This document shows, piece by piece, positions 51,701 through 57,736 of a stretch of DNA of 64,000 nucleotides. The translations under genes were made by a program, and so were the position numbers. This DNA is from Methanobrevibacter sp. Lineage in GTDB: Archaea > Methanobacteriota > Methanobacteria > Methanobacteriales > Methanobacteriaceae. Positions within the stretch are counted from its first letter, which is position 1, and each line of letters begins with the position of its first letter. The stretch covers positions 163,088 through 227,087 of the forward strand of contig NZ_JAUNXR010000004.1 of NCBI RefSeq assembly GCF_030539665.1, given 5' to 3'. The notes below the pieces were generated by a model that made no database searches, had not been told where the DNA came from, and saw only the letters and a list, made by a program, of their open reading frames with translations.

Positions 51701-52468
51701 TTAGAAGAAAAATTCAGGTTCTTTTCTTTGTGAGAATTTTTCTGCAAATGCTGCAGCTGCTTCGTCAAATCCTTCATTTACAAAGGATCTTGCATCTTCA
51801 GGACAAATGTAGATACATGCGGAACATCCATCACATTTATCAACATCTGTAACTACAGGGTCGTCATCTGGAATTGCACCTTGTGGGCAAGCAGGTACAC
51901 AATCATAACAGAAAGTACAAAGCATTTCGTCACAGCCTGCTTTAAATGGAACTACTTTATATTCTTTGTAAGGTTTGTTTCCAGGTACTTCAATGTCTGC
52001 TGTGGAATCAAGGTTTTCTCCACATTTGTCTGCAAATTCTTTGATTTTTTCTAAATCTTTTTCATCTGGTCTGCCTTTAGCTACGTTGGTGAAAATGGAA
52101 TGTTGACTTACAAATATTGCAGCTCCGATTACATTAAAACCATTATCTTTAAGTAAATCAGTTAATTCTAATAATGCGTCTCCAACGTCTGCATTTCCAA
52201 TATTTACAAATGCGATTGTTGGGGTACCGTCTGATTTGAATCTTTGTAATTTTTCCCTTGCGATTTTTGGAATTCTTCCTGCAAATACAGGCATTCCAAC
52301 TACTACAAGTTCGTCGTCACCAAATCTTCTTGGTTCTTTGTCTTTTTCGTAGTTTAATAAATCGTATATCTCATATGTTCCTTCAAAGTTACTTGCTATT
52401 TTGTTAGTTATCTCTTTTGTTGTACTAGATGGACTAAAATATATTTCTGAAATTTTTTCGAATAACAT
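51701..52468 (-). CDS. Flavodoxin-ferredoxin fusion (EFR1-type ferrodoxin)
   Basis: 255 residues. The first ~150 are flavodoxin-like, with the FMN phosphate loop in YFSPSSTTKEIT near residue 10 and VVVGMPVFAGRIP. The rest has two 4Fe-4S motifs, CDEMLCTFCYDCVPACPQG and CDGCSACIYICPEDA, in bacterial-ferredoxin style. Such fusions are cytoplasmic electron carriers. The C-terminal EKFSQRKEPEFFF is unusual but short. No ribosome site stands out except AGGTG-type bases (minus strand) upstream. Confidence 0.9.
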   Translation of the reverse strand: MLFEKISEIYFSPSSTTKEITNKIASNFEGTYEIYDLLNYEKDKEPRRFGDDELVVVGMPVFAGRIPKIAREKLQRFKSDGTPTIAFVNIGNADVGDALLELTDLLKDNGFNVIGAAIFVSQHSIFTNVAKGRPDEKDLEKIKEFADKCGENLDSTADIEVPGNKPYKEYKVVPFKAGCDEMLCTFCYDCVPACPQGAIPDDDPVVTDVDKCDGCSACIYICPEDARSFVNEGFDEAAAAFAEKFSQRKEPEFFF

Positions 52469-53435: not shown

Positions 53436-53670
53436 TGAGGTAAACAATTCAATAATTAAATCGGAAAACACTTTCCAACAAAACAAATTATTGTTAATTT
53501 ATGGAATATTTTAATAATTATCTTAATTGATTAGTAAATTTTAAACATTTTAAAGCATTTATTTGATAATTTGAATATCTGTTTATAATTTAGATACATT
53601 TAAATTAAATGATTAATAAAAATACTATTAATATAAATCTTATTTATTATTACATTAATGAGGAGAAACA

Positions 53671-54747
53671 ATGAGTAGTGAAAAGATAGCATTAGTAGGA
53701 ACACCATGTCAAATACTAGCTGCAACCAAAATCAACAAATATGAGGATTATACTGGTGGTTCTGACATTGATTTTAAATTAGGATTATTCTGTATGGAGA
53801 ACTTCTCATATTCCTACCTTGAAAAGTTCTTAGAAGAAAGAGGAATTAAATTATTTGAAGTAAAGGAATTCAGAATAGATAAAGGATACTTTATAGCATT
53901 CTTGATGGACGGTTCCACCTTTAAAATACCAATTGCAGAGACAGAATTATTTACACGTAAAAATTGTCACGTATGTACTGATTTCACTTCTGATGCTTCT
54001 GATATCTCAGTAGGTTCTGTAGGTACTCCTGAAGACCATTCAACAGTGATTGTCAGAACAAAAAAAGGAAAGGAAGTAATTGACAATTGTATTAAGAAAG
54101 GATATATTCAGGCTGAAAAACTTGATGAAAAAGGAGAAAAAATCCTTAGAAGCGTAGCTAATAAAAAGATATCCGGCAATTCAAAAATAATTGCAAAGAG
54201 AGAGGCTGTTGCAAGACCTGTTTTATCCAAAAGATACATGTCTGACGATGAAGTAAAGGCAGAAGCACTTATTTGCCAATTCAAAAACTTAGAAAACGAT
54301 GTCATTAGTGTTGGATCATGTGTTCTTTGTGGTGCTTGTGAATACGTATGTCCTATTGACTCAATTCAGATTAACCGTAGAAAACCAGTAGCTACAAAAG
54401 AATGTGAAGACGATTGTCATGCATGCTACTTTGCATGTCCAAGAACTTATGTAAGTGAAGAAATATTTGATAAGGACATTGATGAAAAGCCATTAGGAGA
54501 CTACATAGAATTGTTGTCTGTAAAAGCAGAATCAATTATAGGTCAGGATGGTGGTGTAGTATCCGCTATTTTAATTTATTTACTTGAAAACGAAATAGTA
54601 GATGAAGTGTCTATTGTAAGACAGGACAAGGATGCTCCATGGAGGCCTCAATCATTCTTAACTTCAAGAGTTCAGGATGTAGTATCTGCTGCTGGAACCA
54701 AATACAGTACAGTACCTATTGGATTTAAAGCACTTTCCGACAAATAG
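53671..54747 (+). CDS. FrhB/FdhB-family flavoprotein with permuted domain order
   Basis: 358 residues. Members of this F420-hydrogenase/dehydrogenase beta family oxidise or reduce F420 using FAD and an iron-sulfur cluster. The usual order is (ferredoxin)-FrhB_N-FrhB_C. Here FrhB_C comes first: ALVGTPCQILA at residues 7-17, CMENFSYSYLE at 41, CHVC at 99-102 and SVGSVGTPEDHSTVIVRT at 113-130. The ferredoxin follows (CVLCGACEYVCP at 217-228; C245, C249, C252, C256), and FrhB_N is last: GQDGGVVSAILIYLLE at 291-306 and AAGTKYSTVP at 340-349. The cut falls exactly between the two family domains. ATG with GAGGAG upstream and a promoter-like region show an independent, intact gene. Confidence 0.85.
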   Translation: MSSEKIALVGTPCQILAATKINKYEDYTGGSDIDFKLGLFCMENFSYSYLEKFLEERGIKLFEVKEFRIDKGYFIAFLMDGSTFKIPIAETELFTRKNCHVCTDFTSDASDISVGSVGTPEDHSTVIVRTKKGKEVIDNCIKKGYIQAEKLDEKGEKILRSVANKKISGNSKIIAKREAVARPVLSKRYMSDDEVKAEALICQFKNLENDVISVGSCVLCGACEYVCPIDSIQINRRKPVATKECEDDCHACYFACPRTYVSEEIFDKDIDEKPLGDYIELLSVKAESIIGQDGGVVSAILIYLLENEIVDEVSIVRQDKDAPWRPQSFLTSRVQDVVSAAGTKYSTVPIGFKALSDK

Positions 54748-54779
54748 AAACTAATGTTTCTATATTTTTCTTTTTTTAA
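54745..54779 (+). terminator. Terminator after the FrhB-like gene
   Basis: A perfect seven-base-pair stem TAGAAAC and GTTTCTA with loop TAAT, starting at the stop codon, then a T-rich tail with seven T in a row. Confidence 0.7.
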
Positions 54780-54780
54780 C

Positions 54781-55275
54781 ATGACAATCAAGATAACTAA
54801 AACAGAATTCGATAATCTGGCCGAAATTGCAGAGTTGGCTGAGGAAATATGGAATGAATGCTTTATTGACATTATTTCACAAGGCCAAATTGACTACATG
54901 GTGGAACAATTCCAGTCATTGAAAGCTATGGAAAATCAGGTGAAAAATGACAACTATAGCTATTATGGCGTTTATTTCGACGATAAACTTTGCGGATATT
55001 TTGGAATTCGATTAGAGGATGAAAAATTATTTTTAAGCAAATTATATCTTCACAAGGACTATCGTGGCCAAGGAATCGCTTCCAGAATGCTTCAGACCAT
55101 TTTTGAAATAGGTAGAAATGAAGGCAAGAAATCAGTCTATCTTACAGTTAACAAGTACAACGATCAGGCCGTTGATGTTTACAATGCAAAGGGATTTGAA
55201 GTAATTGATAGTGTTGTAACTGACATTGGGGAAGGCTATGTGATGGACGACTATATTTTTGAATATGTCTTATAG
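54781..55275 (+). CDS. GNAT-family N-acetyltransferase
   Basis: 164 residues of the GNAT fold. The acetyl-CoA site motif A is LYLHKDYRGQGIASRML near residue 90 (RGQGIA is the pyrophosphate loop), and the C-terminal VYNAKGFEVIDSV is motif B. The frame begins at 54754 inside the terminator; ATG at 54781 is the start. There is no ribosome site upstream, so the mRNA may be leaderless or the start mis-set. Substrate unknown. Confidence 0.85.
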   Translation: MTIKITKTEFDNLAEIAELAEEIWNECFIDIISQGQIDYMVEQFQSLKAMENQVKNDNYSYYGVYFDDKLCGYFGIRLEDEKLFLSKLYLHKDYRGQGIASRMLQTIFEIGRNEGKKSVYLTVNKYNDQAVDVYNAKGFEVIDSVVTDIGEGYVMDDYIFEYVL

Positions 55276-56707: not shown

Positions 56708-57736
56708 ATGGATTTAATGAAAGAGCTTTCTTTAACCCCAGGTATTTCTGGTTTTGAAGAAAAAATTGCTGATATTATTGAAAGAGAATTAAAAGATAAT
56801 GTCGACTCCATTGAAAAGGACAGTATGGGAAATATTATAGCTACCAAAAAAGGTGAAAATAAGAAGGCACCTACAATAATGCTTGCATCTCATATGGACG
56901 AAATAGGATTGATGGTCAGATACATTGATGATAAAGGATATATTAAATTCTCCAAAATCGGCGGAATCAACGATCAGATGTTGATGAATCAAACCGTAAC
57001 CATTCATTCCGCCACTGGTGATCATGTTGGAGTCATCGGTTCAAAGCCACCTCACGTTACAAAACCTGAAGAAAGGAACAAGGTTGTCCCGGCTGAGGAT
57101 ATGTTTATTGATATTGGAGCAAAGGATAAGGAAGACGCCGAATCAATGGTCTGTGTAGGAGACCCAATCACATTCAAGTCATGGTATGAAGAATTCCCAA
57201 ACGACTTGATTATGGGTAAGGCTTTGGATAACCGTGTTGGATGCTATGTGATGATGGAAGTTTTAAAAAGAGTGGACACTAGAGCTACCGTATATGGTGT
57301 AGGTACTGTACAGGAGGAAGTTGGTCTTAAAGGAGCTAAAACTTCATCATATAGATTAAATCCTGACATGGCTATTGCTTTAGATGTAACTTTATCTGGT
57401 GACCATCCTGGAATCAAGCCAGATGAGGCACCTGCAGTAATCGGCAAAGGACCTGCAATCATTTTGATTGACGCAAGCGGACGTGGAATCATCACTCAAA
57501 AGTCAATCAAGGACATGTTAATAAAAGCAGGTGACGAAAATGATATTGATTATCAATTGGAAGTAAGTGACGGCGGAACCACTGATGGTACTGCAATTCA
57601 CTTGACAAGGGAAGGAATTCCAACAGGGGTTCTTTCAGTTCCAACAAGATATATCCACACTACAGTTAGCGTATGCAGTAAGAAGGATATTGAATCAACT
57701 ATCGAATTAATCGTAGAAGCTATTAACAATCTCTAG
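56708..57736 (+). CDS. M42-family aminopeptidase (TET type)
   Basis: 342 residues. A zinc or cobalt aminopeptidase that in archaea forms dodecameric tetrahedral particles trimming peptides from the proteasome. Metal and catalytic motifs: [11 protein letters not shown] near residue 61 (His, Asp), [11 protein letters not shown] near 180 (Asp), [11 protein letters not shown] near 210 (Glu-Glu), LDVTLSGD and the final [11 protein letters not shown] (His). GGTGAATAAGT precedes the ATG. Often called endoglucanase in older annotation, wrongly. Confidence 0.94.

Follow-up and report, generated by a model that had tools for sequence, protein, structure and literature searches.

Proteins of the FrhB/FdhB family that resemble the one analyzed here share an FrhB_N and an FrhB_C part, with differences in the order of the parts and in the placement of the ferredoxin clusters. 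FrhB of the F420-reducing [NiFe]-hydrogenase has the order N-C, with its ferredoxin carried on FrhG, and in Methanothermobacter marburgensis its own cluster is ligated by Cys104, Cys134, Cys192 and Cys195 (PMC3591093). FdhB is also N-C, with iron-sulfur centres after FrhB_C and no second part beyond (order from the copy in the genome studied here; clusters, PMC3448663). FpoF/FqoF, the N-terminal half of Fsr and FGltS(I)-alpha have the order ferredoxin-N-C. A different order is on record for MTH193/MTBMA_c06440 (ADL58239), which appears in Kaster et al. under F420-dependent glutamate synthase, as subunit 4 of an enzyme that "remains to be proven" (PMC3087415); Susanti and Mukhopadhyay named the type FGltS(II) in 2012 (PMC3448663). 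The legend of Fig. 9 in the 2013 eLife paper on Frh describes a swapped alignment of the M. marburgensis protein to FrhB, its C-terminal 83 residues corresponding to the FrhB N-terminus and its N-terminal 182 to the FrhB C-terminus (PMC3591093); the permutation itself is already known. No biochemistry was found in the literature for the present protein or its orthologues.

Domain order of the window protein

The window, a 64,000-nucleotide stretch of a Methanobrevibacter sp. genome, carries at 53671..54747 (+) a complete gene that starts with ATG and encodes 358 residues ending in ...FKALSDK*. From the reading frame, the Pfam domain order, the order-wide orthologues and their operon context, it is assigned to the FGltS(II)-alpha/MTH193 family as a permuted F420H2-oxidising subunit of F420-dependent glutamate synthase. 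The order C-ferredoxin-N, proposed earlier from the bare sequence, was confirmed by Pfam search. FrhB_FdhB_C comes first in the chain (residues 4-153; 53680..54129, +; E-value 1e-46), with its "SVGSVGTP" adjoining the F420 site. A two-cluster ferredoxin domain follows (residues 212-259; 54304..54447, +) with the conserved Cys217/220/223/227 and Cys245/249/252/256; its Fer4 match covers residues 212-232 and a weaker two-cluster match extends to 259. FrhB_FdhB_N is last (residues 291-350; 54541..54720, +; E-value 9e-19) and in the re-ordered alignment includes the helix GQDGGVVSAILIYLL, whose role at the FAD pyrophosphate is taken from the Frh work (PMC3591093). The old C-terminus is joined to the old N-terminus by a linker of ~28 residues (~176-203; 54196..54279, +), delimited from alignments and marked by conserved R177, V184 and R188. 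Chance matching is ruled out since both FrhB domains score far over their gathering cut-offs (PF04432, 159 versus 23.3 bits; PF04422, 67.8 versus 22 bits). The NCBIfam equivalog cut-offs are missed both for frhB (TIGR03289, 179 versus 331.5 bits) and for FpoF (NF040616, 137 versus 475 bits). The [4Fe-4S] cysteine quartet of FrhB is present as Cys13/41/99/102, equivalent to FrhB Cys104/134/192/195; identity to FrhB is 31-36% over the aligned part. FpoF/FqoF, the Fsr half and FGltS(I)-alpha have all three parts and the cluster ligands in common with the window protein.

In sequence searches each normal-order PDB relative aligns to the protein as two blocks in swapped order, and moving residues 204-358 ahead of 1-203 in silico gives a single collinear match per relative, with joins that lose little: re-ordered residues 3-330 match 8riu_B 11-347, 3-329 match 8rja_E 7-348, and 68-334 match 3-279 of FrhB (6qgr_B). 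The re-ordered chain is also collinear with the N-terminal half of Fsr, and the single runs span nearly the full length of the relatives; among ferredoxin-N-C proteins the comparison covered Fsr and two FpoF-like chains. By this single collinear match the protein is, as had been suspected, a clean circular permutation of ferredoxin-FrhB_N-FrhB_C, its new chain ends lying in the loop ahead of the strand "IALVGTPCQ". An AlphaFold2 model built on a 42-sequence alignment shows a compact fold of good confidence (pLDDT 86.9, pTM 0.88). A Foldseek search with it places FrhB chains at the top over only ~180 columns (TMq 0.46), a partial match that is consistent with permutation because Foldseek depends on chain order. 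The preliminary description had also suggested that the rearrangement might shift the clusters relative to FAD and F420; the fully conserved cluster ligands and the compact model give no sign of such a change. Origin by tandem duplication and loss of the outer parts is plausible; no tandem-duplicated intermediate was seen. Normal N-C order is kept by every further FrhB-family member that the genome encodes: two are FrhB-like, one is FdhB-like and one is fused to a sulfite reductase. This fusion, a 682-residue F420-dependent sulfite reductase of the Fsr-like kind (contig C1, L084:2132-4180), combines FrhB_N and FrhB_C with a nitrite/sulfite reductase portion.

The gene is intact and stands by itself, in agreement with the preliminary description, which held that it is no fragment. 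A ribosome binding site-like GAGGAG (53660..53665, +) stands five bases ahead of the ATG, and a T-rich stretch directly after the stop codon (54765..54777, +), possibly an archaeal terminator, falls in the 5' end of the next called reading frame, ahead of that frame's likelier start at 54781. Upstream lie ~235 bp of AT-rich spacer and then a metallo-beta-lactamase-fold gene, neither of which hides an FrhB_N domain. No relative was found among viral contigs that would point to a viral or mobile origin. Assembly error at the locus was considered and excluded, because the swapped order is conserved across the order Methanobacteriales. A degenerate or chimeric pseudogene, or an artefact of local rearrangement in a MAG, might be suspected by anyone comparing the domain order with FrhB, FpoF and FdhB alone, but this reading has next to no probability and is already refuted: the same arrangement recurs at 43-89% identity in no fewer than 17 genera of Methanobacteriales and in another family of the class, the orthologues conserve every cluster cysteine, and the structure model scores well.

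Association with glutamate synthase genes

Orthologues were sought in 152 genomes of the phylum, namely 151 of Methanobacteriales and one (G151) from another family of the class. Full-length orthologues with the same order are present in 124 of the 151 Methanobacteriales genomes, representing 17 of 19 genera, as well as in G151, and never in more than one full-length copy per genome; one scan of genome contigs returned only four close relatives. The eight ferredoxin cysteines are found in 51 of 51 orthologues, with Cys99 and Cys102 of the FrhB cluster likewise invariant, and Cys13 and Cys41 are absent only from three N-terminally truncated reads; the 42 full-length rows show no change at any of the 12 cluster cysteines. 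The preliminary description had itself named a known subfamily with this order as grounds for giving up its novelty, and such a subfamily exists. The swap is no oddity of this genome: it is the regular arrangement in F420 subunits of F420-dependent glutamate synthase, whose orthologues are found order-wide, and the swapped alignment has been in print since 2013 (PMC3591093). The permutation event predates the order Methanobacteriales, and the protein is an old and fixed natural permutation of a multi-cofactor redox protein.

The identity of the subunit comes from the operons of its orthologues. These lie mostly inside gltB1-gltB3-[subunit]-gltB2, in which gltB1 is the class II glutaminase, gltB3 the GXGXG domain and gltB2 the glutamate synthase FMN/ferredoxin gene, and their reading frames overlap or nearly touch gltB3 or gltB2 (e.g. 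in G144, G002, G127 and G043). The gltB1-gltB3-gltB2 set is the archaeal split glutamate synthase. On operon, length and domain order the operonic orthologues are equated with MTH193, which has the same swapped order and a similar length and belongs to the same operon family as the window protein. Because its orthologues sit within this set, the window gene very probably encodes the predicted electron-input subunit of F420-dependent glutamate synthase, MTH193/FGltS(II)-alpha, and family membership suggests that F420 would be its specific donor. The preliminary description had supposed that the rearrangement might change the partner of the protein. Putative partners can now be named as GltB1, GltB3 and GltB2, from the orthologue operons and from the glt cluster of the genome itself. 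The partners of FpoF/FqoF and Fsr are different ones, and FGltS(I) is also a putative glutamate synthase. That the gene instead specifies an unrelated FrhB-like subunit of a hydrogenase, formate dehydrogenase or sulfite reductase, permuted by chance, is very remote: its C part does score best against FrhB models, though under their cut-offs, but separate normal-order proteins of these kinds are encoded in the same genome and the orthologues sit in glt operons. In this way a gene that could easily be annotated in error as the beta subunit of an F420 hydrogenase is tied to glutamate synthesis in gut methanogens.

As the F420-dependent glutamate synthase subunit, the protein would take a hydride from F420H2 onto an FAD lodged between its FrhB_N and FrhB_C parts. 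Electrons would then pass singly from FAD to the FrhB-type [4Fe-4S] cluster (Cys13/41/99/102), on through the two ferredoxin clusters to GltB2, and within GltB2 from its ferredoxin clusters to FMN. Ammonia would be released by the GltB1 glutaminase, and the imine formed from it and 2-oxoglutarate would be reduced to glutamate at GltB2, with GltB3 contributing a GXGXG beta-helix. Every component needed for such a path is encoded in the genome; the path, the cofactor content and complex formation are predictions.

The unlinked subunit gene and its glt partners

The window gene differs from the MTH193 type in being unlinked from gltB1-gltB3-gltB2, and to the orthologues in genus g19, which are operonic, it shows ~46-51% identity. 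The full partner set is encoded in the same genome by an intact cluster, gltB1 (GATase_6), gltB3 (GXGXG) and gltB2 (Glu_synthase plus ferredoxin), at C1:475028-478141, with a gltB3-gltB2 gap of 12 bp. The usual operon context is thus lacking, the F420 subunit being on contig C4 and the glt cluster on contig C1: the subunit has left the glt operon in this genome, with its partners intact elsewhere. By coordinates, 87 orthologues lie within 6 kb of gltB1, one (G095) adjoins gltB2 where its contig ends, and the unlinked orthologues number 34. Three of the unlinked cases are in single-contig genomes, two of them ~222 kb and ~254 kb away and the third on a distant part of the chromosome. No description of this separation from an intact gltB1-gltB3-gltB2, seen here and in ~33 relatives, was found in the literature.

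Distance has not dissolved the association. The 90 good genomes of Methanobacteriales comprise 82 with both the subunit and glt (including G008 and G140, where the gene is split over contig ends), none with the subunit only, one with glt only (G010, in 300 contigs) and seven with neither. The Fisher p of ~1e-9 for this co-occurrence (91 genomes, G095 included) is only a guide because related genomes are not independent. The seven genomes with neither subunit nor gltB1 are G040, G045, G101, G021, G029, G110 and G114, of 90-99% completeness. In G018 (L088, L089) the subunit and gltB2 are each broken by several stop codons, which suggests that both parts of the pathway decayed together.

Trees of the subunit, GltB1 and GltB2 resolve the same three groups: A, which holds the unlinked subunits plus that of G109, and B and C, both operonic. 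In the RpoB tree B-type genomes from genera g1 and g9 are nested within group A, whereas the three glt trees put them with genus g12 (B-type loci L065-L070 versus A-type loci L054-L058 and L083). By AU test a B clade is incompatible with RpoB (p 9e-6), and the species grouping with the subunit (p 2e-45) and with GltB2 (p 2e-78). These values are not strict, since the grouping was defined with the trees already in view. The simplest reading, and a likely one, is that the B-type operon was transferred between methanogen lineages and displaced the older cluster together with its unlinked subunit. What the gene trees and co-occurrence indicate is shared fate, as distinct from physical contact. A subunit that left its operon and was later displaced together with its partners by a related operon provides a good case on which to test how complexes can be deduced from the history of genomes. 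The G109 locus (L100) reads gltB1-gltB3-gltB2-subunit, with an A-type subunit after gltB2 that is possibly re-joined; its branches are long and its contig is 5 kb.

Upstream palindromes bear on the same association in some relatives. At 53463..53476 (+), 208 bp ahead of the ATG, stands GGAAAACACTTTCC, the sole GGAA-N6-TTCC in the window; it agrees with GGAAG-N4-CTTCC at 8 of 10 positions and might be a weak operator, a suggestion drawn from the sequence. The only GGAAG-N4-CTTCC of the genome is GGAAGATATCTTCC at C1:474310 (L083:2311-2324), upstream of a pdxT-like gene and gltB1-gltB3-gltB2. Within the genus the palindromes upstream of A-type glt operons match 9 or 10 of the 10 positions, and a perfect site lies 35-38 bp ahead of the unlinked gene in seven relatives. 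In G081 an identical GGAAGATATCTTCC precedes both gltB1 (-96) and the unlinked subunit (-37), these being two of three sites in 2.2 Mb. Only the positions of the palindromes are informative, because genome-wide they are not enriched over a reversed-pattern control. The motif resembles the NrpR operator, GGAA-N6-TTCC. Nitrogen genes are under NrpR control according to the literature. Co-regulation of the subunit with the glt operon in the window genome is only suggested, because its glt site is perfect but its subunit site matches 8 of 10 positions. Co-occurrence, gene trees and, in some relatives, the palindrome agree that the subunit and gltB1-gltB3-gltB2 still share their fate.

The unlinked A-type subunit might alternatively be a free oxidoreductase of the F420H2:ferredoxin type that serves other or several partners, e.g. 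the iron-sulfur protein encoded at 51701-52468. Its unlinked position in ~34 genomes would fit, as would the adjacency of that iron-sulfur protein (family c17) in three compared loci (G000, G105 and G046), but this reading is quite improbable: the subunit never occurs without gltB in the good genomes, it was replaced along with GltB1 and GltB2 on arrival of the B-type set, its operator-like palindrome in G081 is shared with gltB1, and other neighbours adjoin it in G013, G017 and G106. It is also unlikely that the A-type subunit acts as a free-standing, separately controlled input module that joins glutamate synthase conditionally or serves other acceptors; were this true, nitrogen assimilation could alternate between F420H2 and a different electron donor, e.g. 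ferredoxin. The F420-dependent glutamate synthase, encoded at two separate loci, thus stays the preferred setting for the subunit. Two neighbours of the window gene recur beside the unlinked subunit in some relatives, the c17 protein with two C-terminal ferredoxin motifs, read from the (-) strand, and an M42 aminopeptidase (c10) at 56708-57736 (+).
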